This document shows positions 10,737-48,570 of a DNA stretch of 49,080 bases, in pieces; the first letter of the stretch is position 1; every line of letters begins with the position of its first letter. The DNA lies in assembly GCA_024697225.1 (NCBI GenBank), contig JAILGA010000106.1:1-49080 (forward strand), written 5' to 3'. Made by a program: the position numbers and the translations under genes. Source of the stretch: Lachnospiraceae bacterium. Its GTDB lineage: Bacteria; Bacillota; Clostridia; Lachnospirales; Lachnospiraceae. The notes under the pieces are model-generated. The model saw nothing but the letters and a program-made list of their open reading frames with translations, had not been told where the DNA came from and did not search any database.

Positions 10737-13700
10737 ATGGCTAATGAAGTCAATGCCCCAAAGAACAGGGTCACCCGCAAGCATCTGCGCGAGGAGATCA
10801 AGACTATCAGGAATGATGCGCAAAAAACCGAGAATAATTATACAGATGCGTATAAGCAGCTGACCAATAAGGCATATCGTATGGCCGAAAGGGTCGCCGG
10901 TGTGCATCTGCCCAAAAAGGATAAACAGAAGGAGCTTCAGAGTGACTTTCTTACCGACCTGAAAACCATGCTGGAGACCATTCGTGATTACGCGGGAAAA
11001 GAAGGTCTTGATGACAATCTGCAGCTTGAGGAAATTGAGCGGATCAACCGTCGTCTGTTAAGGATGGATACAGCATTCTCGAGTACGAATCTGAGCTCGG
11101 ATCAGGGGATTTCCACTGAGTATATAGAGCTCAAGCAGATGTTTGACGATATCCATGAAAAGGTTTTGTCCAAATTTACGACCCGCACTTATGCGAACAG
11201 CAATGAGAAGGCTCAGAATTCTCCGCTGCAGTTTCTTAATGATCTTGTCAAACAGGATCCCAGACACAGTGATTACCACGGCATCTCGACTCTTAAGACA
11301 CTGATGGGGCTTCCCTATGAACAGATCCAGCTGGATCAGCAGCAGCAGATAGTCCAGGGGTATGAGAACAGATTAAATGCGCAGGCGGCTATGGGGAATA
11401 CCATACACAGATTTGCCGAAAAGATATGTTCTTTTTATACCCTCGATGAGACCACAAAGGCTACAAAAAACTTATCCCGCGAAGATCTTGCAGGTCTGAA
11501 GGAAAGCTATGATGATCTTATCACCAAGATCACGGAATATAAGAACCTCCTGCCTGAGAACCACTCATATCTGGAGGTACTGACCCGGGCTTCCGTCGAT
11601 CTCGTGAAAGAAAGAACACAGGTCGAGCAGGCCATAAGGGCGATCGATGACAACGTAAGATCCAACGAGGAACTGAAAAGAGAGATCCGTCCTTTTTCTA
11701 TCTATGAGGTTCAGGGCAGGATCAATCCGGATTTCAGTAATGGATTTTTTGAACGGGCCCATAAGGTGCAGAACACCGGAAGTGCTTTCCGCGCCAAGCT
11801 CACACAGTGGAAACAGGATTCCGCGACAAAGGCGATGCTCGAGGACTTTGACGAGACGATGGCAGCCTTTAATAAGCTCACGGATCAGACACTCCCGCAG
11901 CTTTTGAGCCTTGACCGCGGTGATAAGGGCTATCTTCCGGCCATGACCGCTCAGGAACTGAGTGACTTAAGAGATGACTATCAGAATGCGGTCATCAAGA
12001 TCGATCAGTTTGCGAAGACTTACGGAGAAAAACCCAGAAGTGAGGAGCAGAAGGAATTTATGAGAGCCATTTCCGGTGTATATTTGGAAATGGTGGACAA
12101 ATTCCGCATGCTCGACCAGCTTGCGGGTGCCGAGGACGTGAAGGAGCTTCCTGAAGCGCTGGATATCCAGAATGCCAAAAAAGATGAACTTGAAGGCAAG
12201 GAGCCTCCCAAGAAGGAAGAGGAAAAGAAGGCTCTTGAGGAGGCGGAACAGGAACTCTCCGAAGAACAGCAGCGTCTGAAGGATGCGGGATTCTATCAGA
12301 TGCTCTTAAATGACGGGCAGCTCTTCCCTCAGATGCTCTTTGAGCCCACCGATTCCCAGCGCGCGACGGATCTTATAGGCCTGAAGAGGGAGTCTCAGGC
12401 TCTTGAGGGTCCCCGCAAGAACTTCAACCAGATCATGACAAGAAACAGAAGGATGCGCGCGTGCCCCGATATCAGTACCTTTGATACCGCACTCGCCGTC
12501 AATCCCGATTATCCGATTCTCACAGAAGAGGATAAGCTCGGCTTTGAGTCGCATTTCCAGGAACTGCAGAAGCAGGCCATAGACCTTGCGGGTAAGCTGA
12601 CCACTTATTATGAGCCGGATATTAACGGCAGGACCAGACTCCTCAACGCCGCGGAGATTGCCGAAATGGAGCAGGCTTACAGGAATCTGGCGACCGAGGC
12701 GTTCATGTGCGAGGGATGGCTTCCCAAGAACGATCCGAGAAAGGCGGCATTCTCTGCCCTTGAGGAGCTGTGTGACAATCATGTAAAGAGCTTCAGGGCC
12801 GCAATAGATTATATTGAGAGGAATGCGCCCGAGTATCAGGAAGCCAGAAAAACGGATGAGAACGGGAATGAGCTGCCGGTAGTTCCGAGAACCAAGGCAT
12901 TCTCGCTCTACGAACTGCAGGGCGGCATGAATCCGGAGATTGACGGGGGCGCGCTGGAAACCGTGACTCAGTTCAAAGAGGAACTGGATGCCTTTGAAAG
13001 TACCCTGAATAAGGTCAGCAACAAGGAGTTCGGCCAGTTTAAGCCGATCCGCGCCGAGTACCACGCATTTGCCAGAGAGATTAACAATCTCTATAACAAA
13101 GTGATCCCCGATATGCTGCGAATGGACTTCGACAAAGGGGATTTCTCGTCGCCTGTAACGAGACAGAAGGTACAGGATGCCATCAAGGAATTTGAAAAGG
13201 CGACCATGGCGTTTATCCCCATGCGGGTCGATTATGAAAGACGTCAGAAAAAGAATAATCCGAAGATCACAGAGGAAGAAAAGAAGATGTTCCAGACCGC
13301 CGCTGTGCTCTTCCAGAAGGTCTCTGACAAGTGGCTTGCCATGAACTATCTGCTTGACCGCAAGGGCAATGAGATCGCACAGGATATTGAACGTCACAAT
13401 ACGGAACTGGATGAGTTCAGGCAGGAACTCAAACAGTATAAGGATAACCAGCAGCTTCCTGAGAACGAGAGGAAAAAGGATCTGAAGTTCAAGCACGATG
13501 CGAAGTTCCTTGCCTGGGCGACACAGCTGGATGATCTCTATATGAACAAGAGGCTGTCTCCCGCCGCGTTATTTGAGGAGGATCCCTCGGTAGGCCGCTC
13601 CCAGATATTGAGCGAGCTTCGTCTTACGGAGCAGAACATCAATGATGTTCAGATGCGCGCCTTTTATCTCGGCGAGCAGCCATGGAAGACTGATGGCACA

Positions 13701-16700: not shown

Positions 16701-17252
16701 GAATACGAGAAACTGCTTAAGGGCGGTAAGGAAAAGAGCGGCTTTGATTTTGCGACCATGAAGATGGTCAAGCCCGAGCCTGTCGTACAGGCTCAGCCGG
16801 CAAAGGATGCCAAGAATGCCGGGAATATAGTGAATCCGCCCGAACAGAAGAACATCGTGAATCCGAACGTGCAGAATAACGGAACCAAATCCCTGGTGCA
16901 GGATCTTGACTTCAACCAGATGATGGCGAAGGAACTCAATAAAAACAAGAATAACAATAATAAGATCAACAATGGCCAGAAGAATAATGAACAGATCATC
17001 ATTGAGGACAAAAAAGAGGACAAAATCATCATAGAGAAAAAAGAGGATAATATCATCAACGAGAAAAAAGAGGATGGAAAGGAACAGAAAAAGGGGCAGG
17101 TAAATACTATAGACTTCGATCAGATGTTCGGAAGCCTGATCACTGAAAACATGAATGACAAGAAGGAGATACACAGAACGGAACCTGTTAAGGTTAACGA
17201 GATTGATCCGAATCAGAAAAAGAATAACGGACCTATAACCAACTTACATTGA
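10737..17252 (+). CDS. Giant modular protein, 2,171 aa, with helical repeats and a degenerate kinase-like domain
   Basis: There is no signal peptide or membrane helix. Residues 1-1050 are helical and contain about four degenerate repeats of 150-200 residues; two begin with F-S-(I/L)-Y-E-(V/L)-Q-G (320 and 722). A Pro/Gln linker (1058-1105) leads to a mixed domain at about 1115-1560. There, LQVMGYILG (1380-1388), then IPKYTSD, then SNILGAESDEDLF line up by eye with the LQLMDYICG..DRHxxN..GIDNDxSFG segment of PI3K/HipA-like bacterial kinases, but the catalytic Asp/Asn and metal Asp are not conserved, suggesting a pseudokinase. A shared helical module follows (about 1652-1830). The tail is Lys/Asn-rich with three KKED repeats and two D-F-(N/D)-Q-M motifs (2058 and 2126). 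It heads a run of related large genes. Function unknown; an effector or scaffold is my inference. Confidence 0.88.
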   Translation: MANEVNAPKNRVTRKHLREEIKTIRNDAQKTENNYTDAYKQLTNKAYRMAERVAGVHLPKKDKQKELQSDFLTDLKTMLETIRDYAGKEGLDDNLQLEEIERINRRLLRMDTAFSSTNLSSDQGISTEYIELKQMFDDIHEKVLSKFTTRTYANSNEKAQNSPLQFLNDLVKQDPRHSDYHGISTLKTLMGLPYEQIQLDQQQQIVQGYENRLNAQAAMGNTIHRFAEKICSFYTLDETTKATKNLSREDLAGLKESYDDLITKITEYKNLLPENHSYLEVLTRASVDLVKERTQVEQAIRAIDDNVRSNEELKREIRPFSIYEVQGRINPDFSNGFFERAHKVQNTGSAFRAKLTQWKQDSATKAMLEDFDETMAAFNKLTDQTLPQLLSLDRGDKGYLPAMTAQELSDLRDDYQNAVIKIDQFAKTYGEKPRSEEQKEFMRAISGVYLEMVDKFRMLDQLAGAEDVKELPEALDIQNAKKDELEGKEPPKKEEEKKALEEAEQELSEEQQRLKDAGFYQMLLNDGQLFPQMLFEPTDSQRATDLIGLKRESQALEGPRKNFNQIMTRNRRMRACPDISTFDTALAVNPDYPILTEEDKLGFESHFQELQKQAIDLAGKLTTYYEPDINGRTRLLNAAEIAEMEQAYRNLATEAFMCEGWLPKNDPRKAAFSALEELCDNHVKSFRAAIDYIERNAPEYQEARKTDENGNELPVVPRTKAFSLYELQGGMNPEIDGGALETVTQFKEELDAFESTLNKVSNKEFGQFKPIRAEYHAFAREINNLYNKVIPDMLRMDFDKGDFSSPVTRQKVQDAIKEFEKATMAFIPMRVDYERRQKKNNPKITEEEKKMFQTAAVLFQKVSDKWLAMNYLLDRKGNEIAQDIERHNTELDEFRQELKQYKDNQQLPENERKKDLKFKHDAKFLAWATQLDDLYMNKRLSPAALFEEDPSVGRSQILSELRLTEQNINDVQMRAFYLGEQPWKTDGTRDLGNLAEFQAHLAQRNEFGTHTVKQYATKGQTSSQEILEKAIRNMPDKLKKLQVTYLDEVVEYIDEVEEPRQQEIPQVNEAGREEQPKQEENIQDNQPKQEVPLNNQPVQAAPKPKRKRVTRQVERKGTVEEALRSFYNRNTKGKFNHKDEDLMLEIRNDDIRDYETKGFAKAFKRETLQDNRPLMYFVCDLNRALFNAGCNYDVYDLHTDNRIPNGYNRGYAKIAAQAINDDFAFVKSPENKKGTMVFTERKDKQGNQPSDNLLPRTNLWDGQKFQFGEAKQDQSFDVVIASTEKDYAEQVPGDKTKEFYTTTKNFRSSSFVGFLPTSVVQAPDFSNMTAKEMAMVMDDIEEIQYNVSAEKNKAADPFTSKVDDFSSYEKANTLANAADLQVMGYILGIPKYTSDKLRIGFKLNEKGKPEVSNILGAESDEDLFSNLAPNDPALVDPDNMLVMTSDMAQKILDWSEGKFNPNHDAVMASLSRLPDGARAAFDRRLKVMAAKVREAYLYNDDFDDVVDAEKKPGEPGMIGLHVKKGVIRILNRNDFNQLKLDDLSVGRNSGDYRTRFSKPPENIFDAVADLPKQSHLALMDKWAATWSGDKSKEYGHLPESRLGQSQYRKFIHESKFEREYTEKERERSLLKLKRMTGDIVRMDRNRKKESIFHWDTGKYTDVLKAQEELDREISKYADLHVSKTKDEYQKHFKYAREQLKENENYTELYEKARKENLEIKKQRDKIKAENEKEPDQKKHKPLPPFKPYPKKKIVSIYDLDPSAVRRINDYRDLRGVRDAMLKMRKKLEIYLTARVNPSSEFGQMRYDAMLKMYNDLNDRLAEYITYTGDLKEVPKTARLEKLPAKKGDEKVKYKVVFEPMMDSGEWELRIPEHVREDYIHAEREEIFEKGEKKNKDMAMIRAEADMTEQVIRQRYETAKKDYDLNGPKKQNAFLDGFEIWDNNDAVIKNAKKLNPRRLRPVLLNDPKKKKAPAAPKISVEDQRRQAKAEYEKLLKGGKEKSGFDFATMKMVKPEPVVQAQPAKDAKNAGNIVNPPEQKNIVNPNVQNNGTKSLVQDLDFNQMMAKELNKNKNNNNKINNGQKNNEQIIIEDKKEDKIIIEKKEDNIINEKKEDGKEQKKGQVNTIDFDQMFGSLITENMNDKKEIHRTEPVKVNEIDPNQKKNNGPITNLH
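11688..13364 (+). repeat. Degenerate ~150-200-residue helical repeats in the 2,171-aa protein
   Basis: Residues 318-462 and 719-876 align from F-S-x-Y-E-x-Q-G-x-x-N-P through a helix ending in an (M/L)D motif. A related unit lies at 516-696, and a partial one ends near 305, outside this interval. Each ends with a helix pair of the type (L/V)xxx(E/K)(L/I/V)xxxxxxYxxA followed by a second amphipathic helix. Similarity is protein-level only. Confidence 0.6.
16995..17075 (+). repeat. Lys/Glu/Ile low-complexity repeat (IIIExKKED type)
   Basis: Residues 2087-2113 of the 2,171-aa protein contain three copies of a nine-to-ten residue unit, IIIEDKKED, IIIEKKED and IINEKKED. An Asn/Lys-rich stretch precedes them. 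The base composition is locally AT-rich. It is probably a disordered charged linker before the terminal D-F-D-Q-M motif. Confidence 0.75.
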
Positions 17253-17259
17253 GCATGAG

Positions 17260-17265: not shown

Positions 17266-17272
17266 TATAGAT

Positions 17273-18115
17273 ATGGCAGAGTTTACCGAAGATTTTTATT
17301 ATGAGTATCCGATCGATTATGAGCCTGAAGAGTTTGAGGAACCCAGTGTAAGAAGTATTGAGGATCTAAGGAGAGACCTCAGGTCTGATCCCGCCAGCTG
17401 GAAGGCCGATCTGATGGCAACGCTGACGGAGGCGTATCTCCCTGCCAGGGAGGTATACGAACAGGATGAGATAATGCGGAAGTTCAGATACAGGATCGAA
17501 GATCCCGATGACGACAGCCCGTTCAGCAGAGAAGAGCTGGAGGAGGAACTGGAGTTCCTTACGGATGTTTTTGAGGCGGATCGCGAGCGCTCCAGAGAAA
17601 TGATAGAGAGCGATTTCATTGAGGAAGTGAGGATGCACGCGCTGGCCGCGTATAATATTCTCGACAGCTCAGAGGATTATGAGCCGTCAGGAAAGGCGGA
17701 TCTGCTTGAAGGCTATGAACCCGCGCCGGAGGATGACAGGATCCCGCGCCGGCTGTATGAGAGTGCTGAAAGCCTTCGAAAGCTTTCATATCAGATCGAC
17801 AGGCTGGATGAGGATGAGGATCTTGCCGATATGCGTTCTCCATTTGTTATCATCGAAGACATCAGTGAGGAGTCACTTACCACCGCTGACAGGCAGCTGA
17901 TAACGAAGGATGCGGAGCACAAGAGGGATCTTAACCGCTTGTTTGCCAGAAAGACCGAACTTGAGGACGAGCTTATGGACCTCGCGGAGAGCATGCTTCA
18001 GGACAGATCCCTGTGGGAGAATGAGGATGAGATCTTCGCGGAGGATAACATGATCGCCATAGAAGAACTCGGAGAGGAGATCCTGAACATGCAGATCAGC
18101 CGGGCAGCCGTCTGA
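17273..18115 (+). CDS. Acidic coiled-coil protein, 280 aa, short paralogue of the 1,140-aa protein
   Basis: The start is set by a G-rich ribosome binding site; an upstream TTG would overlap the previous stop. The protein is very acidic and helical, with no signal peptide or membrane helix. Its first 80 residues match the N-terminus of the protein at 23366-26788: both have YEPxxFE, then D(L/I)RxD, W(K/M)xDL, TLTExYxPA and Y-R-(I/L). Its second half (LLEGYEPAPE, then LxYQIDxL, then EIIE/VIIED and DLNRxFxR) matches residues 151-275 of that protein. It lacks that protein's coiled coil and C-terminal parts. It lies 20 bp after the 2,171-aa gene and 12 bp before the cysteine-peptidase gene, so these are almost certainly co-transcribed. 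Function unknown; it may compete with or cap its larger paralogue. Confidence 0.82.
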   Translation: MAEFTEDFYYEYPIDYEPEEFEEPSVRSIEDLRRDLRSDPASWKADLMATLTEAYLPAREVYEQDEIMRKFRYRIEDPDDDSPFSREELEEELEFLTDVFEADRERSREMIESDFIEEVRMHALAAYNILDSSEDYEPSGKADLLEGYEPAPEDDRIPRRLYESAESLRKLSYQIDRLDEDEDLADMRSPFVIIEDISEESLTTADRQLITKDAEHKRDLNRLFARKTELEDELMDLAESMLQDRSLWENEDEIFAEDNMIAIEELGEEILNMQISRAAV

Positions 18116-20782: not shown

Positions 20783-20833
20783 AGCCAGGCATATATTTAT
20801 TGCAGGGAAAAGCAGAGAGGGAGGATACATATC

Positions 20834-29800: not shown

Positions 29801-29966
29801 GGTCAGTAAGAGAATGTTTGTTTCATTTACGCTCCTGCTCCTTATCAGGTATGCGGGATTTAATTCTGCCTGGATGATCTCCTCCACATCCTTTGAATAT
29901 GCGATGTTTCTGGCAGTCATCCATCTCTGTGTACTTGGCAAACCGCTAAAGAGAGAGGAGATATGA
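26892..29966 (+). CDS. Membrane sensor with 14-blade double propeller, Y_Y_Y domain and 7TM, no output domain
   Basis: A signal peptide/anchor lies at about 17-37. Fourteen blade motifs of the two-component regulator propeller type follow (for example GFLWIGSYSGL at 107, NRLWAGTND at 145, GNLWFVSNHQG, GDLWILASAG, DLYIAGSSG), enough for two seven-bladed propellers. A Y_Y_Y domain lies at about 725-795, then about seven TM helices at 803-1015. This is the sensing half of hybrid two-component (HTCS-like) receptors, usually linked to polysaccharide sensing, but here no kinase, GGDEF or phosphatase follows in the chain. The output is probably supplied by the next gene, whose ATG overlaps this stop by four bases. 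The TM region of that next protein is related: both have an I-N-L-x-T-G-x-I-F signature. ATG 26892 has no strong ribosome binding site; ATG 26898 is an alternative. Confidence 0.9.
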   Translation: MLMNGDHANRNNGRIRLRARLVTGALVVMLAFAAMSETGHCEEAGAATQKQTTERIPPALNTSGALNRQLAVDPIRDSDGFSAVLYNNRNGLPTSDANAIAQTRDGFLWIGSYSGLIRYDGNNFERLYLADGIANVRCLFVDGKNRLWAGTNDSGVFSLSKGMMESWNKSDGLRSNSVRAVVEGSDGYIYVSCAAGGISMIGEDGKLVLLSDERIDNQTIHELRRGSNGLIYGVTQEGDIITIQDGGQLSFFSHDDIHSDRILCIMPDPVSPGSIYLGTSDSKIIHGDLTDRFVKREESSIDPLTYIISMEYIDGQIWICADNGIGRLGEDGFRQLTGVPMNNSVEGVLTDYEGNLWFVSNHQGVMKVVSNPFSDLFKRYGLPEAVVNATCFYEERLFIGTDTGLIVMEGDKRIERLAIKSIRTASGKIMHDTDLIKFLEGVRVRGMYRDSRDRLWIPAWHKYGLLCYDHGEVTVFCEEDGMFSDAVRTVTELGDGSIVAGGNGGACIIENNRVTKSFGAEDGVVNQTILTAMEGFHGELILGSDGDGIYCIGPEGTEHIGLEEGLRSEIVLRIKKSKKRDVIWIATGNSMAYMTPDHKVTTIQNYPYPNNYDMYENKKGDLWILASAGIYVIPCDELLANGQIEPTFYGIQSGVPCAASANASSELTPEGDLYIAGSSGVIKVNIDKTVRNAVSLKIALPYIDADEVRIYPDEYGHFLIPANARKVTIYPYVFNYSLVEPLVTYELEGFDLPATTTTRDKLKPIDYTNLKIGKYIFVMNVRDSAGDTEQTQTFTIVKGRELSVGTIGTMILDGAVILLLSGIIIFTSVYRRRGRITDRLYFAMIISAISLAASEFLSYRIETVTAPLMHALMIFTNTLYYAALVFLPYLLTVYLACRITSDKKRLRKWKLLSGIPCILYLAAVLINLRTGWIFTIDAGNAFHPGSDGMQLCYQLPAGFYLLLMLIMAFKVSKRMFVSFTLLLLIRYAGFNSAWMISSTSFEYAMFLAVIHLCVLGKPLKREEI

Positions 29967-31828: not shown

Positions 31829-31960
31829 TACGGCGTGGATTTTTGCAAAGATGAGCATATATCTCTTATGAAAATCATCGATTTTGGTTCCGTCGTGTGA
31901 GGTGAGACGGACGTACGGGATAAAAACCGTAAGGAAGGAACGCAGAAGTGGAGGAAGGTC

Positions 31961-40200: not shown

Positions 40201-43200
40201 GATCTGACAACAGTAGCGGGAATGCATAACAACAACCCGCTGCTGGATCATCTGAAACAGTCCCAATTGCTGATATTTGGTACCGATGAGAGACTGTACT
40301 CGTTAGATGAGCAGCTCGAAGGGGAAATGGAATATCCGAATAACGATATGCATTATGTGGACTATAACCACATCAAAAGCGCTGTCTATCAATATTCCCT
40401 GATACACGGTCTTATGAGCGACGGTACTCTGACGGAACTTGGCCAGAATAACCTGCGCAGTATAACGGATGATCTGAATAACCAGTATGACGGCCTCAGG
40501 GAGATCGCAGGGAGCTGGAATTCCAGGAATCCTCTTCTGGGAGAAATGATACGTCTGGTTGCCGATGACGCGACCACGTATGAGCGCGGCACCCCCTGGA
40601 TGGATCTGAAGAAGAATTATACATATCAGAATCTTCAGACACAGGCAGGTATGCTGCATCTTTCAGAAGCCAGTGAATCGTTCCCGTACGGCGGTGATGA
40701 GACTGCGATGGTGTATCAGGGCTATCCGACCGGAAGTCCCAGGTTTCCTCTTCCGTACGCGATAATCGCCGGCAGGAGAATGGCTCTGACGGAGGCAGCC
40801 CAGAACAGATCCCAGGAGAACGGGACGCTGACCAGACTGCAGGATCGTCTGAACCGCCGTATGATGTTAAGCGAAATTGAGGAGATCAAGAAGCAGCTTA
40901 ATAAAGTGGATGCCATGCATCTTGCGAGCGTGGATGAAAAAGGAAGACCCGACCCTTCAAAGCCGGGATTTATGGATGTCGCGCATTTAAACCGTTATCT
41001 TGAGAATCCTGTAATCGAGGCATCTTCGTATTATCCCAGAGGCACCAGACATGTACATAGTGATCTGAACGCGAAGCATACTCTGATATGCAACGGCTGG
41101 CCGGTGAGCGATCTGAACCTCCTCTCAAAGCTGTATATTCAGCGTGCCGATCTTAAGGAAATGCTCGATAAGCCTGATGAGCAGAGGATATATATTCTGA
41201 CTCCCGAAATGGAGGCAGAGTGTGCCAGAGGCTACAAGGTACTGTGTGAGATCACGGATTACCTCGATAAGCAGACGATCAGAAACGCTGCGGACAGGGA
41301 GAGGGTTCTTGCCCATATCAACAGTTACGGTGATCTGTTATACAACGATACCGTACTTGGCTCGGAGGGCAGAGAGCACGCCTACAGGACGCAGTTTGAA
41401 CAGATGCGCAGGAGACAGGTACCTGAGATGGAGTTCCTCTCGGAACAGGAGCTTGAGGATCTGAGGGAAAAGAACCGCAGCTACATGGAGATGAAGGATT
41501 CGACGGAGCTTACTTCTTCGTATAACGCTCCTGTTTCGGACGAGGAGAGATCCTTCATCAATGCCGAGCAGATATCAAAACTCGCTGAGGCACAGGGACA
41601 GCTCGAAAACAACGGGGCGGTCCCGGCCGATCCAAACCTTCAGAACGCGCTGCATCAGATACAGCTCTTTACTGCCGGCGTGGACAGATTCTACAGAAAT
41701 ACCGATCTGAGCAAACCCGAAAATGCCGCAAGCCGCAGGCAGGAATTTGAAAGACTCGTCGATCAGGCGGCTGAGGCTGAAAACGCGCTCTCCGAAGCCG
41801 AGTATGCGCTTACAAACGGCGGTGAGAAGAAGGACTTCACGCCCGAAGAAGAGAAAACTCTCAGGCAGGTCCGGCTGGCCAAGGATTCCGCACGTGAGAT
41901 GAACAACATGTATGCCGGATTCATAGCCTTTGAGGCGCAGCGCAGAGAGGATATCATGGCCGAGGAACAGCGGGTCATAGACGAGGCGAGGGCAGAGGCT
42001 GAACAGCGGGAGATCGATGAGCGCCACATGGTGAACACCCTGGACTATATGGTCACGCTCGATCCGGAGGAGAGAGACAGGCTCCGTCAGCTGCTCACGG
42101 CTCCGCTGGAAGGAGAAGAGCGCTTTGATTTCGAGACGGGTGAGATCGTAGAGGCCCAGCCGAGACCGCTTCCGGACCGCATTCTGCTCGCATATGACGA
42201 TGACGGGGATATGAGGCCGCAGGTATTGATAATGGCCGAGAAACATGCTGCCCTGCGCGCCGAGGAGGAAAAGCTTGCCGAGGAGAACAGACAGGAATCC
42301 ATCCGCGCGGAGAGACGCCGCATGAAGGAGTCACGTGAGGCTGCGGCGAAGGCGGGAATATCGCCCTATGATGAGGGTGCGGAGGATCTCTTTGCCGAGG
42401 TTGACGAGAACAGCTATCTCGGGGAGGTCGTGCGTCAGGGAATGGTGCAGGCCCAGCTGAACAGAACATGGAATCCCATGGTTGACGACCGCCCGGTGCC
42501 GAAGAGGCGCGAGCGTGAAATGGAGGGTATCCGCAGACGTCAGGCCGCCATCGACAACAATGATCCGCGCTATGAGTGGAGCTTCAGCCACATTCTGAAT
42601 GATGCGTGGAATAAGAATGTGGCGGCAAAGCAGGAAAAACTGGCCGCGGCAGGTGAGGAAGTGATCGATGAGGCAAGGATCGCAAAGGCGCAGTTTGCCG
42701 CGACAGACGCAGAAAATATCTATAAATCCATGGCAGGAGTGATCACCGCGCACTACAGCGCGGATGATATGGACCGCGTGATCGAGGAAAAGTATCCTGA
42801 TTACTACAAGAATACGTGGGTTCCCATGATCGCGATACGCATGCAGGAAAACGGCTACGACCCGCGTCAGAACCCGCAGGGCGCCAAGGCTGTGCGGGAT
42901 GAATTCCTCATGTCTGAGCTTATAACGATCCCGGATCGTCACCAGATACTCTCATACCTCGCGGATGATCTTCCGACACCTCTGAGAGAGGATGTGCGAA
43001 AGAGGATGCTCACCACCGATATTCCGTCAGAGAGACCGTACGAGGAACAGATATCAAAGCCTCTGCATGACAGAATACAGGAGCTTATGGATATAGAGAA
43101 GCCTGTGAACGCGGACGGCGTTCCGGTTCCTCCGGGTGAGGGCATAGAGGAGTACAGAGAGGCTCTTGAATACGCCGATGAGGTGCTCGACGAGGTTGAA

Positions 43201-46200
43201 GACGATGTCTACCGCTCTGCCACGGGCCGAGCTGCCGACAGAGCCTACGTCGAACGTACCGTCAGGGATAATCAGTTTAAGAATGCGCTTAAGGATAGAA
43301 ACGACGAATATAAGATCGTAGCGGGGAAACTGCTGCGGGCTGAGGAGGACGTGGTCAGGAAAGGCGTACTGCCTGTACATGAAACCGCACTGAACCGCAT
43401 ACTCTATCCTGATATGAATTATTCACAGGAGTATCTGAACAACATCGGTCATATGCTCAGGCGCATGGATGAGATGAAACTCACTCCCACGCAGGATGGC
43501 GAACAGCAGTTTAAGGTATACGCCTATGAGGATGTCGCCAGGGCAAAGGCAGACCTTGAGGATGCGATCAAAGGCGGTGACTGGGATAAGATCATAGAGG
43601 CAAAGCGCGTATACAAGGAAAAACGCGAAAACATGAAGGAACTCATGGATTTTGCCAGGGAGCACTTCTCGGATACAAGTACCGTCGGCAACCTGGATTC
43701 CACGAGAAACAAGGCTGTGCCGTGGGAGTATTCGAAGGATTACTTTGCAAGTTCTCATGTCAATTCCATATTCCAGCTCTATTCGGCTATCAAGCAGACC
43801 GGCGTATCTGTGGAGGACTTCATCTATGATCCCTATGATGCGCGCAGACAGATGAATGCCATACTGGATGAGAAGCGAAGCTATAAGACAACCCTCGGGA
43901 ATAAGAGCATCGGTGCCGGGCTCGGAACTCTCATGGCAGAGAATGATATCGCAAAGACCATCCGGACCATAGATGCGGGAACCCAGGATATGATGGTGAG
44001 CCGTGCCTTTGCGACGATCGTCGAGTGCAACCCCAACAAGGAGAACCAGGCACAGAACCGCCTCTCCGACTGGCTCTTAAGTAACCACAGGAGCATAACC
44101 TCCAAGGTGCGCGAAGCCGACAGGAATCCCTTCAGCATGGGAGACCCGAAAAGAGCGACCGAAGTATTACAGCTTTTGTCGGTCGTGTCTGAGGAGGACC
44201 TCAAAGAAAACTACGATCAGATGGTCTGCGGCGTCTGCTATGACGATGAGGGCAAGGCCATTCCGAAGATAACCGCGGAGCAGTATATCGCAGGCAAGGA
44301 GAGCTTCGATTATTACGAGCTTCTGGACCGCGGCAGCGACATCATCCGGGATGCGACGGCGGTTGAGGGAACCACCTTTGCCCCCGCGGCATTTATGGAG
44401 GAGCGTCAGAAGGTTCTGGCAATGGTCCTCACCTCAAGAGCTGCGGATGCCGGAACACCTGGCTATGACCTGCTTGAGTATGAGGTGACGCACATGGCGG
44501 AAGTCTATGACATGTTAAGAACCGCCAATCCGCAGATGAATCTGCCGGAGCTTGCACAGGAGCAGAAGCAGCGCATGGCGGCGGTGTCCGCACAGTATCA
44601 GCAAAAGACAAGGCAGCTTCAGAATGCCATGCCCGGAGAGCAGAGAAATGAGATCAGAAACCGCAGGCGTGCGAACGGAGATGTGGCAGATAACGCCAGA
44701 AGACGTATCGTCGGGCGTGAGGCAAACCGCAATCACGCGGAACAGGTGCGGCGCGTACGCGAGGAAAGAGAGCGGCGCAGAGAGGAAGCTATCCGTGAGC
44801 AGGAGGAAAACAGACGTCTTGCGCAGGAGCAGCTGAAAACCGAGCTGGCGGCACAGGCTGCCAGAGAGAAGACAAACCGCGAAGTCGAGGCGCGTATCGC
44901 GGAGCATGCCGATCTCCAACTGACCAGGAGAGTGCTTGAACTTGTGGACGCGGACGAACAGGCGAATCGGGAAAAGCACGAGGTGGCAGCCAGGCAGGGT
45001 GCGACGCAGAAAGAGATCCGTGACACAACCCTTAAGTCTTTGAATGCCGCTGAGCGCAGGACGTATGTTGTCAGAAGCATTCTTTCGGCATACAACCAGG
45101 ATCCCGCCAATGGAAGACTTACCAAAGATCAGATCAGGGAGATCCTTACTGCGGAGGTCGGAGCGGAGCGTGCCCGGGATATATCTGAGAAGCTTCCGCT
45201 CGGTGTGGTCAAGAGTCTCGCACACATGGAGCAGCTGACCGAGGACGAGAAAAAGATCGTGCTGGGCGCGATCATCGGAACGCTTTCACCGGAGCAGAGG
45301 GAAAGGATCCTGGCTGACGAGAAGAATTTCCTGCCCTTCGAAAAAATGGAGCTTTCGGGCAATCCTTACGCTCCTGGTGCAGGAGACAAGCTGATGGTCT
45401 TTGAATCGCAGCTGGTGACGAACAGCCCTATAAGCAGGGAGATAAAGGATCTCAAGGCAGATATTTACAACAACTGGGAGAAGTATTCGAAAGGAAACCT
45501 GGGCAAAAAGGAACGCGCCCAGTTCGCCGCCGATCTGGATTACGCCGAGAAGATGCTCCGTCCTGTCAAAGAGTCTGTCATGGATTTCGGTATAGCGTGC
45601 AGGGCTGTCAATGATACCTATCTGACCAGAAGAGACAGAGAAACATCAAATGAGCTCGCGGGGCGCGAAGAGAACAGCTTTACGCAAAATCTCCTCGCTC
45701 CGAAGCCGGGCGACAGACAGTCGATCGAGTATCCGCGCGCCGAAAGGACAGATGATATCCGAAGGCTTAAGAATGAAAAACTGCAGTTTGATCCCAATTA
45801 CATAAAGACCGTGGCCAATCTGCTCCGCAAAATGGAGAATATGGGAATAATCGATCCGCAGGCAGCAGCCGAGGAGGATTATAAGATCTATTCCTTCAAG
45901 CCGCTTGTGAAGGCTCAGCTTGATCTCAAGGAAGCGATTAAGAGCAAGGACAGGGAGAAGATACATAACGCGACCGAAAAGCTTAAAGAAGTCCGCAAGG
46001 AATATGATGAAATGATGAGGATCGCGGAAACGAGCTTCCATCCCACGGATTACATGGATAACCTGGATGTGATGCGCAACGAGCTCGTACCCTGGGATTA
46101 TGCAAAGAATTATGTCGCCACATCCCAGCTCAATGCCATCGGAATGTTCGGCAATACTCTTAAGGACTTCAATATCTCTGTGGATGATTTCGAACGCGAT

Positions 46201-48570
46201 CCCGCAGCGGCCATACAGGAGATGGAACGGCAGACGCAGGAAAGGTATTGCACCATGAAGGGCTTTGCGGCAAACAAGTCCGTCGGCGCGCTTGCGACCA
46301 ATGCCCAGGCCAAACTCATAGACTGGGGAGTATCCGGTATCGGAACTGCCGCGGATGGCAGATATCTGCGCGCCGTGGAGGGCATCATTATGGCTGATCC
46401 CGGCGTCAGTAAGGATGTGCGCGAAAGGAATATTTTCCTGCACAAGCAGGTCACTGACTATAACAGCGCCGTCAACTCCGCACGTCAGAGCAGGACGCTG
46501 GCTCCTTTGGAAGACGGCTTTGTAAATGAGTCTTCCAAGGGCCGCGAGGCAGTCAGGGCCCTGATGGTGGTCGATCTGCATGATATCGATCCCGACTGGA
46601 TGTTTACCGATCCGCCCATAGCACCGGACGGTACTTTGATGAAGCCTTTCTCACTTTCCGAATATATCACGGGAAAGCAGCCCTTTGATTATCAGGCACA
46701 GGCCAGCCGGACCGACACCATGATAAAAGATGCGGCACGAGAAAACGCCAGACTTGCTGAAATCCGTGCGGAAGACCGCAGGAGAGGCAGGAAGACTATC
46801 ACGATGGAGGGCTACGATCCCGATGGATATTCACCGGCCAAACTCCTGAAGGCCAGACAGGAAGCACTGACAGAGCTTCTGGTGCTCCGCGCGCACGAGA
46901 AGGATCAGCCCGGATATCAGGCGCTGGTGCAGGAACTGAAGGAGATGCCGGAGCACTATGAGAGGTTAAGACAGTCGGATCCTTCGCTCGATCTTCCTCC
47001 GCTCACAAAGGCACAGAAGAATGATCTGAAGGCCGGCGCGAAGGTCTTTGACGAGCTTGTGACAAACAGGGCAAAGTCCATGGACGCCGAGGAAAAGCGC
47101 ATTAAGAGGGCTGAGTCCGCAAAGGAGAAGGCCTTTACAAATTCTCTGAAGGATATCAACAAGACCATCAGGCAGCAGAATCAGCGCCTTGCCCGTCTTG
47201 GGCAGAGGCATGCGCCGCAGCGCGAGATCGATGAAGCTTTGAGGGAATTGCAGCTGAGCGAGCGCAGACGTGAAAGCCTGATCCGTGCGAGGGCAAGAAC
47301 CATTGCGGACGATTACAAGGCGGGTAAGATTCCCGAGGGATATGCGGCCGGACGTCTTAACCAGCTGGCAGCCATGTCAGAAAACAATTATCAGCCGGTC
47401 GAGGCGCCGCCTCTCTTCGGAGAAAGACAGACAAACCCCGTAAGAGAAAACAACCGTCTGAGGGCGAGGGAGAAATACCTTGTACAGAGTCTTATGGAAG
47501 GACGCGGCTATAAGGTGGGACTTGAAAAGACAGATATCGCCGATAGTATGCGTAATTCCATGGAGAAGCTCACCGTGCCGGTCGCCGATGAATGGGAGAT
47601 CATCTCGAGACCCGAGGCCGGACAGGCACAGCCTGTGGTGCAGAACGGGGAACTCGCCCGCGGAGCGCAGGATGTGGCAAGGGGTGCACAGGATGTGGCT
47701 CAGGCTGCTCTGAACATGGCTCATGAAGTACGCGATATGATCAATAACGGGCAGCTGCCGAATGCGGCCCAGGGACTGGCCAACGAGGCACAGGATCTCG
47801 CAAGGGGTGCTCAGAATGTGGTACAGGGCGCTGAGGACCTGGCCCGCGGAGCCGAAGATCTTGCGAGAGGACCTGTAGAAAATGTTCAGGTAGCCCGTGC
47901 GGCAGGGGATCTGGCGAGAGAAGGCGGACAGGGTGTAAATGAAGCCCGTCCGGAGGAAGGCATACAGAACGCCGGTGAAGGTATGCAGCAGGGCGACGGA
48001 TTACATCACGGGGATGCTCAGAATCCGAATGTAGAAAATTACGTGAATGTGAACGAGCAGAAACCGAATGTAGAAGAGCCGCAGGTGCATGAACCCGAGG
48101 TGAATGTGAACGAGCAGAAGCAGCCGAAGGAGGTTTATGACGGAAACAAGGACTACGAAGAGGCTGCTAAAGAAGCGGGTATGAATATCAACGAGTTTGT
48201 CGGTCAGGGCTCTGCGTTTGATCTGGAACTCGAAGAAGGTCCTGAGATCGCGCAGAACGGGCCGCAGCAGGAGCAGATCAAACAGCCTGAGGTGAACAAG
48301 CCGCAGGAGCAGATCAAGCAGCCTGAACAGAACAGACCGCAGCCGAAAGCGCCTGAGAGACGCGAACCCGCGCAGCGCCCCAGAGCAAACAGCATCAATG
48401 TCGTACGCGGTGTGCAAGAAAAGAGTTTTGACGAACTTGAGAAGAAGCTTCTTGGCGGCAGGCCGCAGGAGGGACATTTCCAGAGAAAGGATGCTCAGGC
48501 CGGAAATCTTAAGGGTGCGCAGCTTGACAACAACCACCCTGACGGACCGCAGAAGAATGGCATGAAGTAG
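34228..48570 (+). CDS. Giant repeat protein, 4,780 aa (about 540 kDa), unknown function
   Basis: ATG 34228 follows GTGAGG and the frame is open for 14.3 kb. There is no signal peptide or TM. Layout by residue: an N-terminal part with G-W-P motifs at 137 and 283; a charged coiled coil at 424-474; repeat A1 at about 545-1310 and A2 at about 1540-2400, each ending with a GWP(L/V)xDxNL motif (1199, 2290); an acidic linker with AEDLFDEID (1378) and a related AEDLFAEVD (2718); coiled coils near 2566-2711 and 3500-3561; repeats B1 (about 2905-3449) and B2 (about 3660-4267); a helical region at 4288-4361; then an Ala/Arg/Gln seven-residue repeat (4474-4570), Asn/Val/Glu and Pro/Gln linkers, and a tail with SINVV and SFDELEKKL. 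No catalytic motif is recognisable. Duplication built most of it. It could be a scaffold, fibre or exported effector; all are inference. Confidence 0.88.
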   Translation: MPNQIQITSQYSDNMKKILNTTMGDDANDFIYRAQVFIGDEGRALIVNGHEGPGMVYQSDRSEYIEQQPHQPCAINQPLRMAVYEGDIDTQKMWEDFPNVVREAEEMFRQKVAPGDENIVDFANAMAFNPAKRAINGWPVFKLTERLNLNCWFKEFGAYTNGGTGDKARKELAYCDAHYPFNRMIIAIDKAIGIHVDYFDASEKKSLTPEQEADFRQRLLEEETRILQNLKVVSGFTDDEEGNHVQKLSGVGNPAHEFNRHSARGIKVVYSDTEARITGLQNGWPIEDLNALSSFKKDMDSIYSSVFYESGMVPKLREVPEYKPGEKEYLEKLQKQWDKIEKTIVRDPETRKALLTEMRDLIKEGAEKGLIFSTNLEEDATERFSHTLHDIERKLERELTPSEQEVMEHGEAYNKEEYRRFVEAENDAAKKRREEYDLRMEAERRERELRERAEEERAFTEQLAAEEQALRDFMDAPDYYEGIKEEARRRREAPISLGERERIKLSTNDAEYTWFYRLLADKRLEAAAAAPINKNESPVSDQNDITRYYMGKLDISYDEALNLKLLPPEDRRKLAEDYYDDLIAHPFSGVSDDAASKNARYFGELDAIAAKKMMDVTMPVIDLKDPEQVKNFATGHMGYLSTFAADFLQNNANLTDVKTPSSPVRQAYIGAFGGRSEYAAVAGKLAAANSLEEISRIVNDESRPMLQRAIGLHFLQKYYGELSGKKLSEIPEGKWLEIGAAARTVDSAISAGTDLGLPAAEAPTEEQLNQFMRGGESPFTDYYLKAVEDEMNRSMRTGTGRVHEDAVNNLRTGVIDSARIYNLDFIRQNGHTGPFGPEGFMKMGADEREKTARIFDQTLGNLISVEGNQPLLAAANGESVYDRFTIGGKKTTDRLKEIYGDQYERMTQAERDLAAEAELLSAWADPQGHVVFRPLNYDNNGNIVTLDGFMLSTPAPQRVSDVPANADERRQAHERALVRAQNNAQKLNSLAPGQYQVFGENYLRNRLEGAPQAQHEGIRNDFMLQYVNSTSDLADKVRDQSPDMAAYLRLQSGIARRALDPASPAFTPSYEALMNLVDQVHLPMPDAVDERQPGPVFGTLADNPGNFNAFPLMDAAESAERIMNLTADNAAPGDILKEIATLETHLSEMERVARVRGRGDRLDQAFDGDHTATGFINGNPGINTLRAELDGRRKAIIQGWPLEDTNLIAGLYAKRETVRRAMAGLPEGSQSRLAHERAFRTLNEICTTLDTTVIENAEQRKQVLSAIDAYGPALYNDITAGIGSGTDPQAFRNSVRSAVNADVRENAFRSPEDGIALADTSVQAVDDARKRARTKEEYRRERVRNARAAAREQRAREEQRVREEQRAREEQKEPEIRAEDLFDEIDGDEQDELIDNVLDDAKADVPDEELVDVFENGNADDNGDAGKQDVNADQPEQSFADFVKSVDLGVMPFEDDTFEEAFATEEERVRIESEREETVLGNLFDLPKDYKEAGYNIYGSGRNEGFFEWQDIRERLDNFAKGPGSMLAVKIHRLGSVTNDFRAYIMSDYDLSLEEVMQLSAGDLPARRQLASDYLGVLEAHPLNKNMTQEEREESARFYGEMHKKAIDKFVDTTFPPLDLSNRETIAAIGNGPSAIWSMGQFALDMSQDTEAIYWGEDPAVRSAYADAMGGMGNMSKLHDQMSTMQTVIQLARVVAEKPNPGSPLINKAIGKFYLESANAIMAGKKLSEAPEGFPLYFSNIGGLLSSIPVLLPAEGAPTEQELQDYLDGKIPMPFSDAYLEAANRALAEETMASLSETAQKSVSGDLASKLVNASAIYDLPYIPAGPEADRPRPDYLTMSEQLLHDTHVTFNRVFGKTLQAESNGQIMLSGLRGEEIYDRFLIDGKPVSQAPTLADAKNIRTPEEYRILLEAEIMQAMADPKRTVTYTPLTYDLDGKAVEMTRNGQPVRTEIARPGMPFTKEKFEPIPVANTTREAETVMKYTMARHKLPMDLTTVAGMHNNNPLLDHLKQSQLLIFGTDERLYSLDEQLEGEMEYPNNDMHYVDYNHIKSAVYQYSLIHGLMSDGTLTELGQNNLRSITDDLNNQYDGLREIAGSWNSRNPLLGEMIRLVADDATTYERGTPWMDLKKNYTYQNLQTQAGMLHLSEASESFPYGGDETAMVYQGYPTGSPRFPLPYAIIAGRRMALTEAAQNRSQENGTLTRLQDRLNRRMMLSEIEEIKKQLNKVDAMHLASVDEKGRPDPSKPGFMDVAHLNRYLENPVIEASSYYPRGTRHVHSDLNAKHTLICNGWPVSDLNLLSKLYIQRADLKEMLDKPDEQRIYILTPEMEAECARGYKVLCEITDYLDKQTIRNAADRERVLAHINSYGDLLYNDTVLGSEGREHAYRTQFEQMRRRQVPEMEFLSEQELEDLREKNRSYMEMKDSTELTSSYNAPVSDEERSFINAEQISKLAEAQGQLENNGAVPADPNLQNALHQIQLFTAGVDRFYRNTDLSKPENAASRRQEFERLVDQAAEAENALSEAEYALTNGGEKKDFTPEEEKTLRQVRLAKDSAREMNNMYAGFIAFEAQRREDIMAEEQRVIDEARAEAEQREIDERHMVNTLDYMVTLDPEERDRLRQLLTAPLEGEERFDFETGEIVEAQPRPLPDRILLAYDDDGDMRPQVLIMAEKHAALRAEEEKLAEENRQESIRAERRRMKESREAAAKAGISPYDEGAEDLFAEVDENSYLGEVVRQGMVQAQLNRTWNPMVDDRPVPKRREREMEGIRRRQAAIDNNDPRYEWSFSHILNDAWNKNVAAKQEKLAAAGEEVIDEARIAKAQFAATDAENIYKSMAGVITAHYSADDMDRVIEEKYPDYYKNTWVPMIAIRMQENGYDPRQNPQGAKAVRDEFLMSELITIPDRHQILSYLADDLPTPLREDVRKRMLTTDIPSERPYEEQISKPLHDRIQELMDIEKPVNADGVPVPPGEGIEEYREALEYADEVLDEVEDDVYRSATGRAADRAYVERTVRDNQFKNALKDRNDEYKIVAGKLLRAEEDVVRKGVLPVHETALNRILYPDMNYSQEYLNNIGHMLRRMDEMKLTPTQDGEQQFKVYAYEDVARAKADLEDAIKGGDWDKIIEAKRVYKEKRENMKELMDFAREHFSDTSTVGNLDSTRNKAVPWEYSKDYFASSHVNSIFQLYSAIKQTGVSVEDFIYDPYDARRQMNAILDEKRSYKTTLGNKSIGAGLGTLMAENDIAKTIRTIDAGTQDMMVSRAFATIVECNPNKENQAQNRLSDWLLSNHRSITSKVREADRNPFSMGDPKRATEVLQLLSVVSEEDLKENYDQMVCGVCYDDEGKAIPKITAEQYIAGKESFDYYELLDRGSDIIRDATAVEGTTFAPAAFMEERQKVLAMVLTSRAADAGTPGYDLLEYEVTHMAEVYDMLRTANPQMNLPELAQEQKQRMAAVSAQYQQKTRQLQNAMPGEQRNEIRNRRRANGDVADNARRRIVGREANRNHAEQVRRVREERERRREEAIREQEENRRLAQEQLKTELAAQAAREKTNREVEARIAEHADLQLTRRVLELVDADEQANREKHEVAARQGATQKEIRDTTLKSLNAAERRTYVVRSILSAYNQDPANGRLTKDQIREILTAEVGAERARDISEKLPLGVVKSLAHMEQLTEDEKKIVLGAIIGTLSPEQRERILADEKNFLPFEKMELSGNPYAPGAGDKLMVFESQLVTNSPISREIKDLKADIYNNWEKYSKGNLGKKERAQFAADLDYAEKMLRPVKESVMDFGIACRAVNDTYLTRRDRETSNELAGREENSFTQNLLAPKPGDRQSIEYPRAERTDDIRRLKNEKLQFDPNYIKTVANLLRKMENMGIIDPQAAAEEDYKIYSFKPLVKAQLDLKEAIKSKDREKIHNATEKLKEVRKEYDEMMRIAETSFHPTDYMDNLDVMRNELVPWDYAKNYVATSQLNAIGMFGNTLKDFNISVDDFERDPAAAIQEMERQTQERYCTMKGFAANKSVGALATNAQAKLIDWGVSGIGTAADGRYLRAVEGIIMADPGVSKDVRERNIFLHKQVTDYNSAVNSARQSRTLAPLEDGFVNESSKGREAVRALMVVDLHDIDPDWMFTDPPIAPDGTLMKPFSLSEYITGKQPFDYQAQASRTDTMIKDAARENARLAEIRAEDRRRGRKTITMEGYDPDGYSPAKLLKARQEALTELLVLRAHEKDQPGYQALVQELKEMPEHYERLRQSDPSLDLPPLTKAQKNDLKAGAKVFDELVTNRAKSMDAEEKRIKRAESAKEKAFTNSLKDINKTIRQQNQRLARLGQRHAPQREIDEALRELQLSERRRESLIRARARTIADDYKAGKIPEGYAAGRLNQLAAMSENNYQPVEAPPLFGERQTNPVRENNRLRAREKYLVQSLMEGRGYKVGLEKTDIADSMRNSMEKLTVPVADEWEIISRPEAGQAQPVVQNGELARGAQDVARGAQDVAQAALNMAHEVRDMINNGQLPNAAQGLANEAQDLARGAQNVVQGAEDLARGAEDLARGPVENVQVARAAGDLAREGGQGVNEARPEEGIQNAGEGMQQGDGLHHGDAQNPNVENYVNVNEQKPNVEEPQVHEPEVNVNEQKQPKEVYDGNKDYEEAAKEAGMNINEFVGQGSAFDLELEEGPEIAQNGPQQEQIKQPEVNKPQEQIKQPEQNRPQPKAPERREPAQRPRANSINVVRGVQEKSFDELEKKLLGGRPQEGHFQRKDAQAGNLKGAQLDNNHPDGPQKNGMK
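35860..38157 (+). repeat. Repeat A, copy 1 of the 4,780-aa protein
   Basis: Residues about 545-1310. It aligns with copy 2 in order at several landmarks: MGKLDISYDEALNL, a P-E-D-R-R-K-L-A-E-D-Y segment, the GKKLSEIPEG stretch, APTEEQLNQFM, VYDRFTIGGK, the W-A-D-P-Q stretch and GWPLEDTNL. Divergence is high, so this is an old duplication. Confidence 0.8.
38284..38337 (+). repeat. 18-bp minisatellite, three tandem copies
   Basis: Three abutting 18-bp units encode QRAREE, QRVREE and QRAREE (residues 1353-1370). Units 1 and 3 are identical in sequence and unit 2 differs at two bases. It lies in the charged coiled-coil linker between repeats A1 and A2 and is young enough to be a slippage-prone site; unit gain or loss would keep frame. 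Confidence 0.85.
38845..41427 (+). repeat. Repeat A, copy 2 of the 4,780-aa protein
   Basis: Residues about 1540-2400. Landmarks matching copy 1, in order: MSDYDLSLEEVMQL, ARRQLASDYL, GKKLSEAPEG, APTEQELQDYL, IYDRFLIDGK, MADPKRTVTYTPLTYD and GWPVSDLNLL. Copy 2 is about 90 residues longer, mainly in its second half. Confidence 0.8.
42940..44574 (+). repeat. Repeat B, copy 1 of the 4,780-aa protein
   Basis: Residues about 2905-3449. Landmarks shared with copy 2: YADEVLDEVEDDV, NNIGHMLRRMDEM, the KVYAYEDVARAKADLEDAIK segment, VPWEYSKDYFASS, VSVEDFIYDP, ITAEQYIAGKESFDY, and MNLPELAQEQK at the end. Confidence 0.8.
45205..47028 (+). repeat. Repeat B, copy 2 of the 4,780-aa protein
   Basis: Residues about 3660-4267. 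Landmarks matching copy 1: YAEKMLRPVKESV, KTVANLLRKMENMG, KIYSFKPLVKAQLDLKEAIK, VPWDYAKNYVATS, ISVDDFERDP, SLSEYITGKQPFDY and LDLPPLTKAQK. A charged coiled coil precedes it, as a similar one precedes copy 1. Confidence 0.8.
47647..47937 (+). repeat. Seven-residue Ala/Arg/Gly/Gln repeat near the C-terminus
   Basis: Residues 4474-4570 repeat a unit of the type (L/V)ARGA(Q/E)D, interrupted by a Met-rich and an Asn/Gly segment. The spacing would place Ala and Leu/Val on one helix face, so an extended amphipathic helix or coiled coil is likely. It is followed by disordered Asn/Val/Glu and Pro/Gln linkers. Confidence 0.8.

Follow-up and report, generated by a model that had tools for sequence, protein, structure and literature searches.

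Nearly all functions assigned to the type IV secretion systems (T4SSs) of Gram-positive bacteria concern DNA transfer, and whether these bacteria possess a dedicated effector T4SS has been a long-standing question, as put in a 2025 review (PMC12857230). The review also covers the Gram-positive 89K T4SS of Streptococcus suis, for which export of a protein, SspA-1, was reported. A second paper states that Gram-positive T4SS classes lack virB2 pilins (PMC12102498). Here we describe a stretch of 49,080 bp, hereafter the window, which is the entire contig C11 (JAILGA010000106.1) of a draft genome of 2.8 Mb and 89% completeness from a Lachnospiraceae bacterium and which carries genes for six large to giant proteins. 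From a comparison of its genes with those of related genomes, we conclude that the locus probably encodes an array of substrates for a T4SS that is dedicated to protein translocation in Butyrivibrio-like bacteria. A description of this system was not found in the literature searched by title and start of abstract, a search whose coverage leaves out most subscription journals.

The source genome is designated G000, and relative genomes and their contigs are given in the form Gxxx:Cyy. The six large proteins are lettered A (2171 amino acids, aa), B (884), C (809), D (1140), E (743) and F (4780), and a denotes a partial paralogue. The genus comparison set, defined by kinship label, comprised 79 genomes including G000 and Butyrivibrio sp. 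WCD3002 (G027); a further 199 genomes represented other genera of the family. All coordinates refer to the window, and all features listed lie on its + strand. An initial annotation of the window had listed six open reading frames (ORFs) of these sizes, and each was found where it had been placed, on the + strand and with no internal stop. The same annotation had set the start of the locus at 10737; the locus begins further upstream, with T4SS-cluster genes from position 48.

Results

Genes of a predicted T4SS cluster at the start of the window

The ORFs upstream of A, o1 to o7, were compared with the gene clusters surrounding VirD4 in the relatives. The first, o1 (48..5282), encodes a 1744-aa lipoprotein-like surface protein, a conserved member of T4SS clusters that is 56% identical to the o1 gene located 3' of VB6c and cl20 on G034:C83 and 53% identical to its counterpart in the VirB4/VirD4 cluster of G027:C2. 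It is followed by o2 (5377..7008), which encodes a HAMP–SpoIIE (PP2C) phosphatase (Pfam SpoIIE 1.7e-42, HAMP 2.3e-6) and adjoins o1 in G034:C83, G027:C2 and G294:C12 as well. The T4SS-cluster protein o3 (7043..7861; 272 aa), with a single N-terminal membrane helix, has homologues in G027:C2 (61%), G294:C12, G018:C301 and G291:C124, and the 3D-domain protein o4 (7755..8774; Pfam 3D 5e-19) has homologues within the T4SS clusters of G034:C88, G027:C2, G018:C301 and G291:C124. It is possible that o4 is a peptidoglycan hydrolase, for which a VirB1-like role might be envisaged. The o3 and o4 ORFs overlap by ~100 nucleotides (nt; 7755-7861) in different frames, and the true o4 start is probably downstream. 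Next come o5 (8835..9425), coding for a 196-aa protein with an N-terminal substrate-like motif (IREISFSELAGDM, 8862-8900); o6 (9481..9915), coding for an RsbW-like ATPase of the anti-sigma type (Pfam HATPase_c_2 1.4e-19) with a homologue in the G027 T4SS cluster; and o7 (9908..10657), coding for a DUF975 membrane protein (Pfam 9.5e-22) with a 31% identical homologue 3' of an F-type protein in G034:C61. Since VirD4 clusters hold homologues of o1–o4 and o6, the first 10.6 kb of the window are, judging from these sequence relationships, most likely the closing portion of such a cluster. The core belonging to this cluster may be the one on G000:C82, a contig that ends inside VB6c.

Parts and distribution of the machine

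Several components of the machine were recognized by their family matches. A G000:C82 protein matches the VirB4 structure 4ag5 in the PDB (3.9e-48), and VirD4 was recognized in a G294:C44 protein (PF02534 1.9e-48, TraG-D_C 5.8e-31, Cag5 1.1e-6) whose G000 relatives, 75–80% identical, are encoded on C82, C93 and C77. A VirB2-like pilin is encoded on G000:C93 (T4SS_pilin, PF18895, 2.2e-10). The VirD4 clusters hold genes for a CPBP protease, VirD4, a surface protein, two or three polytopic proteins and VirB4, together with a 270-aa one-helix protein, a 101-aa protein, an extracytoplasmic function (ECF) sigma factor, a STAS protein and, in some clusters, a pilin. When contigs of named genomes were scanned with the VirB4 alignment, 43 loci were recovered, mostly from rumen Lachnospiraceae and with distant ones in other Bacillota; named strains that carry it include Butyrivibrio sp. 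WCD3002, Lachnospiraceae bacterium AD3010 and Hungatella effluvii DSM 24995. The 43 loci largely agree in gene order, and the pilin was matched in 21 of them and the 101-aa protein in 22, many loci being cut short. A distant VirB4 match (32%) stands in the record of a Mycoplasmataceae metagenome-assembled genome (L173).

VirB4, VirD4 and polytopic proteins are usual in Gram-positive conjugation machines according to the review (PMC12857230), and the T4SS might be no more than the ordinary conjugation machine of an integrated element, the giants being its cargo genes that act inside the cell or after DNA transfer. We regard this as clearly improbable. Relaxase matches at 1e-4 were found in none of the 21 ORFs in and around the G027 T4SS locus, and the PF03432 relaxase was found in only one of the seven T4SS genomes (several of which are incomplete), on G027:C7, a contig apart from the T4SS, other relaxase families not having been searched genome-wide. 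Moreover, G000 contains two T4SS series (C82; C93/C77), and four of the seven VirD4-positive genomes (G000, G034, G291 and G294) have at least two VirD4 places. VirB4 is ~75% identical between the series and 85–91% identical within the first series across species. A motif common to the tails of the giants, described below, would not be expected of passive cargo either.

Linkage and co-occurrence of the large proteins with the T4SS

Gene neighbourhoods and phyletic distribution make it likely that A–F are effectors and that the window consists of a T4SS-cluster end followed by their substrate array; export by the T4SS is what we infer from this arrangement. The single contig G034:C83 carries cl2–VB6c–cl20–o1–o2–o5, after which an F-type gene begins. 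On G294:C44, two B/F-type proteins are encoded directly beside VirD4 and VirB6-like polytopic proteins, with o5 nearby, and on G027:C2 a C-type gene lies beside the T4SS cluster. In addition, B- and F-type sequences are found together in one ORF on G034:C243, G294:C15 and G291:C25.

The VirD4 of this system was detected at <=1e-30 in 7 of the 79 genus genomes, namely G027, G290 and the five that have strong F matches (G000, G034, G294, G291 and G018). An F-type search of the 199 genomes of other genera gave no match, and within the genus a further F match, in G267, reached 1.7e-4 only and contains an internal stop. D-homologous stretches are restricted to G000, G291 and G294 among the 79 genomes, and o5 to six genomes, all VirD4-positive. 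Hypergeometric probabilities for co-occurrence with VirD4 were 9e-7 for F and 3e-8 for o5, values that ignore kinship and serve as a guide only. B is strong in five T4SS genomes, and C is strong in G000 and G291 and weak in G027 and G290. WCD3002 has o5, the C-type protein beside its T4SS and two large C39-like proteins, and gave no F-type match. Twelve further T4SS genomes were reached via the named loci, and B was matched in five of them, one being G034 again.

The initial annotation had proposed that the genes form one system and had named homologues scattered without co-occurrence as the result that would speak against it. F, D and o5 showed no such scatter beyond the one F match in G267; the weak C- and B-like matches obtained from genomes lacking this VirD4 form a partial exception. 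The proposal is supported by T4SS linkage in three relatives, by the B–F fusions in three, by the restriction of F, D and o5 to VirD4 genomes, and by the common C-terminal motif and upstream box presented in the following sections. Of the two options it had offered, export of effector-like proteins by a non-Sec route appears the better supported, with the T4SS, which it had not named, as the proposed route.

A motif common to the C-terminal tails

In A–F and in many relatives, a 13-residue motif, approximately [VI][KRQ][DE][ITK][SDN][FLIAM]x[DE][LM] followed by four residues, is located 40–140 residues from the C-terminal end. Its core type is V-[KR]-[DE]-I-S-F-x-[DE]-L, and basic residues follow it, often RRNS in F-type proteins. 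The motif was evaluated with a matrix from which each of eight families was left out in turn, using 422 background ORFs. Hand-placed 13-residue stretches served as seeds; the tails of two G294:C44 proteins and of G000:C45, which fitted poorly, were listed and not used. As only motif-bearing families contributed seeds, the outcome applies to these: all eight had at least one member equalled by at most 1 of the 422 background ORFs.

Within the window, no background ORF equalled the first motif copy of A (VQDLDFNQMMAKE, 16896..16934) or the motifs of D (VKEINADALANKV, 26639..26677), E (IKYISADELASKI, 34022..34060) and F (VQEKSFDELEKKL, 48412..48450), that of E being visible in the E family alignment too. 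The second copy of A (VNTIDFDQMFGSL, 17100..17138) was weak when left out (5.9 bits). The stretches in B (VKDTTFEALYTEK, 20627..20665) and C (FKETSFEELTRNM, 23129..23167) are weak, being equalled by 24 and 9 of the 422 background ORFs, respectively; for the G291 homologue of B and the G000 paralogue of C the figure is 0/422. Homologues collected later were scanned over their last 150 residues, and the motif was found in seven of seven F homologues (two of which are in the matrix) and in five of eight A homologues (one in the matrix), that is, in 5/5 and 4/7 of those outside the matrix. The A homologue P0023 has it at 177, beyond the 150-residue limit. Across the 21 proteins scanned, three other matches scoring above 12 occurred elsewhere, two of which (one in P0023) lie just upstream of this limit. 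The tails of motif-lacking relatives show a distant similarity, seen by eye only.

Similar patterns are present in two small proteins linked to the machine. In an alignment of the 101-aa T4SS protein, all 25 copies contain a V-R-x-I-T-[FL]-x-E-L-like pattern, and 12 of the 25 score at least 8 with the effector matrix, compared with 18 of 224 short ORFs. The pattern [VR][RK].[IV][TNS][FLIY]..L fits all 25 copies, from which it was written, compared with 5 of 224 short ORFs; since it is post hoc and fits only 1 of 27 effector motifs, we call the 101-aa motif similar to, and not identical with, the tail motif. The N-terminal pattern R.[ITV][STN]F.[EQ]L of o5 occurs in 7 of the 7 copies from which it was written, and the best matrix hit fell at the motif in four of the six copies scored. 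The C-terminal 150 aa of VirD4 carry a net charge of -15 to -71 in the eight copies examined out of 13 (one of the eight being cut by a contig end). These features are consistent with the tail motif being a sorting signal recognized at VirD4, with o5 and the 101-aa protein as putative adaptors or competitors. As a side observation, G034:C11 and G292:C24 share an almost identical stretch that encodes a motif-bearing protein of 505 aa, and G292 has no match to this VirD4; the likeness may reflect recent transfer or shared binning.

The tail motif could instead bind a common inner partner, for example o5, within a cytosolic giant scaffold that is never exported, which was the second option of the initial annotation. 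The absence of signal peptides, the helical modules and the similar motif of o5 would all suit such a scaffold. Co-occurrence and linkage with the T4SS, the toxin-type and peptidase domains described below and the similar motif pattern in a T4SS-cluster protein argue against it, and we consider it improbable.

The individual large proteins

As the initial annotation had stated, A–F lack signal sequences and membrane helices: in hydropathy profiles the highest 19-residue mean was 1.40, in F. Its description of all six as built from helical modules, coiled coils and low-complexity linkers needs a correction, in that B has a peptidase domain, E a toxin domain and A a kinase-like region. Pfam gave nothing credible for A, C, D and F, an NCBIfam search of A–F added nothing credible, and WXG100 or LXG domains, the marks of type VII secretion, had no Pfam match in A–F.

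A (10737..17252), a 2171-aa predicted T4SS substrate, has a kinase-like region at residues ~1340-1572 without the catalytic stretch. The A family aligns over ~190 residues with K, a protein encoded at G000:C3:16250-18775 (hhalign 95%, E 4e-8), and because K falls just under the Pfam cut-off for PI3/4-kinases (25.7 bits, cut-off 27.1), the kinase label is tentative for K and for the A region alike. The PI3/4-kinase catalytic residues are not kept in A, where GIPKYTSDK takes the place of GNVDRHEGN in K. No match to A was found in 60 relatives; the protein database holds eight homologues, one of them in G291, and the gene order A–a–B recurs on G291:C49. The gene for a (17273..18115) encodes an acidic partial paralogue of the D N-terminus (31% identity) that is without the C-terminal motif. 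Its previously annotated length of 280 aa is obtained from the ATG at 17273, which the start of the G291 relative matches, within a 288-codon frame that opens with TTG (17249-18115).

B (18128..20782), an 884-aa predicted substrate, contains a C39-like cysteine peptidase domain (Peptidase_C39_2, PF13529; 4e-5, 24.7 bits, cut-off 24). Since the catalytic residues are kept among the domain homologues, with Cys and His in 11/11 and Asp in 10/11 as aligned by eye, B is likely an active C39-like peptidase. C (20834..23263; 809 aa) and D (23366..26788; 1140 aa) are likewise predicted substrates, the former having a paralogue in G000 and a distant homologue beside the G027 T4SS cluster. The 743-aa predicted substrate E (31961..34192) carries an Ntox11 domain at residues 198-429 (PF15521; 5.5e-25, 88.8 bits, cut-off 25). 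It has four full-length relatives, all with an N-terminal part of their own, a helical module and a tail. In a structure model of E the mean predicted local distance difference test score (pLDDT) is 70.7; it falls below 50, to roughly 30, in the tail (654-743), where short helices surround the motif. F (34228..48570), the 4780-aa giant predicted substrate, is composed of modules X (530-1010 and 1528-1980) and Y (3050-3500 and 3839-4320) with linkers between them; a modelled Y module (pLDDT 90) is all helical and has no clear PDB match. A penultimate helical domain common to all six was considered and is not claimed, because the hhalign values were weak for six other pairs (5e-4 to 1e-2, with controls at 0.04 or worse) and the remaining pairs gave no result; an iterated hidden Markov model from E reached two G294:C44 proteins clearly (4e-20 and 2e-11).

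G000 has additional members of these families: further F copies are encoded on C154 and on C25/C3, C occurs a second time, C45 encodes a B/F-type protein, and the kinase-like K is present as well. Contigs C25 and C3 both break off within an F-type gene, of which they cover complementary parts, and these pieces are probably one gene split by assembly. Near the F paralogue of C154, a gene (16175-31747 of C154) whose product exceeds 5191 aa and has a signal-like N-terminus runs off the contig; between it and the F paralogue are encoded a 294-aa protein that we take to resemble a sortase and a presumed EAL-like signalling protein.

The domains of B, E and A bear on the nature of the target. In a variant of the preferred explanation that differs from it only in target, A–F would be antibacterial T4SS effectors of the Xanthomonas type: Ntox11 was described in a polymorphic-toxin survey (PMC3482391), and T4SS killing of bacteria is known from proteobacteria (PMC10989847). 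The gaps between substrate genes are at most ~130 nt, however, so immunity genes do not lie between them on the + strand, and a, which is paralogous to the N-terminal part of D, is the sole small gene. Cargo of the peptidase and kinase-like types is more usual for eukaryotic targets, and we judge an antibacterial function unlikely. Since no immunity genes were seen and the types of cargo suit such a host, the target is likely a eukaryote, for example a rumen ciliate; this is the least certain step of our interpretation. Butyrivibrio is enriched among ciliate-associated bacteria according to one study (PMC6079354), which is circumstantial for a protozoan target.

Ntox11 is also what could link A–F to an extracellular contractile injection system into which they would be loaded. 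An Ntox11 protein is encoded inside a contractile locus at G015:C81 (L012, L013) with sheath, tube, gp25, AAA ATPase and eCIS_core genes, and a sheath gene is present in all four other genomes with an Ntox11 match. G000 itself has no match to the G015 sheath (the genome being 89% complete), and the G034 E adjoins T4SS-type giants. Furthermore, the proteins of G015, G018 and G052 match E over the toxin part only, with tail-motif scores of at most 2.8, and the Ntox11 proteins of L009, L010 and L013 are without the tail motif. With no sheath match in G000 and with E among T4SS-type genes, the contractile route was set aside as very improbable. Sheath genes occur in 15 of 61 relatives.

Putative regulatory genes and an upstream box

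A receptor pair reported in the initial annotation was recovered between D and E. It consists of a propeller/7TM (seven-transmembrane) sensor-like protein (26892..29966; Pfam Reg_prop 1.1e-20), with C-terminal helices and a Y_Y_Y match that is weak at 20 bits (the cut-off is 26.6), and of its partner, a 7TM-PP2C (SpoIIE) phosphatase (29963..31828; Pfam 2.3e-52) that is 49% identical to o2 over the catalytic part. On G034:C243, E adjoins a propeller gene (63%) and then PP2C genes, in an order that differs from that of the window. Since PP2C phosphatases, STAS, an RsbW-like ATPase and an ECF sigma factor are present, the gene content suggests that the cluster and the window are under partner-switching control.

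An upstream box, GCATATAT, is located 78 nt upstream of A (10659..10666), 45 nt upstream of C (20789..20796) and 106 nt upstream of E (31855..31862), and likewise precedes the E genes of G034 and G294. It was selected only after inspection. Among 40 effector ORFs, 10 have the box in the 200 nt before their start, two of these ten being near-identical copies (G034 and G292); the corresponding figures are 4 of 132 for T4SS-type ORFs and 3 of 284 for unrelated ORFs, and the effectors differ from the latter with a Fisher value of 6e-8. As for the remainder of the window, RNA families and tRNAs were not found in it, and the start of a metallo-beta-lactamase-fold gene occupies 48670-49080 at the contig end.

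Discussion

Several observations weigh against the interpretation of the locus as a T4SS substrate array. The box was chosen post hoc and its ten effector ORFs include near-duplicate copies; when 34 further T4SS loci were examined, it preceded only 1 of their 357 ORFs. The VirB6-like proteins, two or three beside VirB4 with ~5-8 predicted helices, have no Pfam match and are assigned by topology and position only; the 270-aa one-helix protein stands at a possible VirB8 place, and neither VirB8 nor VirB3 family matches were obtained. Weak B-like pieces occur in G292, G028, G288 and G006, and weak C-like proteins in G028 and G273, all without this VirD4. G290 has the T4SS and no F, B or o5 match, seven of the 12 further T4SS genomes, including Hungatella effluvii, are without a B match, and the B tails from further T4SS genomes score only 4.7-7.3. 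Apart from the weak stretches in B and C, the motif is weak in the leave-out test for two E homologues (18/422 and 20/422), is missing from the tails of P0024 and P0025, and is not the best matrix hit in o5 of G294 and G018. The matrix found no motif in the two B/F-type proteins adjoining VirD4 (G294:C44), in G000:C45 and G294:C56, or in four G027 proteins, the C39-like ones on C3 and C8, the C-type one on C2 and a 786-aa one on C1. Finally, a substrate of 540 kDa would be exceptionally large for a T4SS.

If A–F are T4SS substrates as we propose, VirD4, perhaps together with o5 and the 101-aa protein, would recognize the C-terminal tail, and the substrates would be unfolded and threaded through a channel of VirB4, VirB6-like proteins and pilin into a target cell, the presumed site of action of their peptidase, Ntox11, kinase-like and giant helical parts. 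The HAMP-PP2C, propeller-7TM-PP2C, STAS, RsbW-like and ECF sigma factor genes would activate the system in response to a surface-sensor trigger. In its most specific form, which is possible and which we put forward tentatively, the proposal is that a pilin-bearing, relaxase-free T4SS under partner-switching surface sensing injects giant effectors of up to 4780 residues, addressed by the tail motif, into rumen protozoa. If true, such a protozoa-injecting system would be a Gram-positive counterpart, in a gut commensal, of the Dot/Icm and VirB/D4 effector systems; with ciliates as targets, it would provide a molecular basis for the interplay of bacteria and protozoa in the rumen.

The system may be viewed as a candidate Gram-positive effector T4SS with a machine, a substrate set and a predicted signal, and because the machine occurs in named strains, the effector-T4SS question becomes testable. 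Its cargo and signal invite comparison with the BID-tail effectors of Bartonella and the XVIPCD effectors of Xanthomonas, which combine varied cargo with a C-terminal recognition part used by VirD4, as is proposed for A–F. In contrast to these, what A–F have in common is a short motif within a tail of low complexity, and BID- or XVIPCD-type domains had no Pfam match in A–F, the presence of such models in Pfam being unchecked. Ntox11 is known from PVC-type toxins and is structurally uncharacterised, with Legionella VpdC as a distant relative, according to published reports; compared with Ntox11 toxins, E passes the Pfam cut-off but has its own N-terminal part, helical module and tail.

With regard to the machine, VirB4 and VirD4 are shared with monoderm T4SSs, as the putative VirB6-like proteins would be. 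A VirB2-like pilin and, mostly, the lack of a relaxase are features reported for Patescibacteria T4SSs (PMC12102498), as they are here. Unlike what that paper states of Gram-positive classes, a match to the G000 T4SS_pilin protein is present in the 21 of 43 loci noted above. The 89K system of S. suis was reported to export one serine protease; the present locus offers numerous candidate substrates that share a motif, and it has no virulence context. What would set this Lachnospiraceae system apart from monoderm T4SSs is a linked array of soluble giants that have a C-terminal motif in common.

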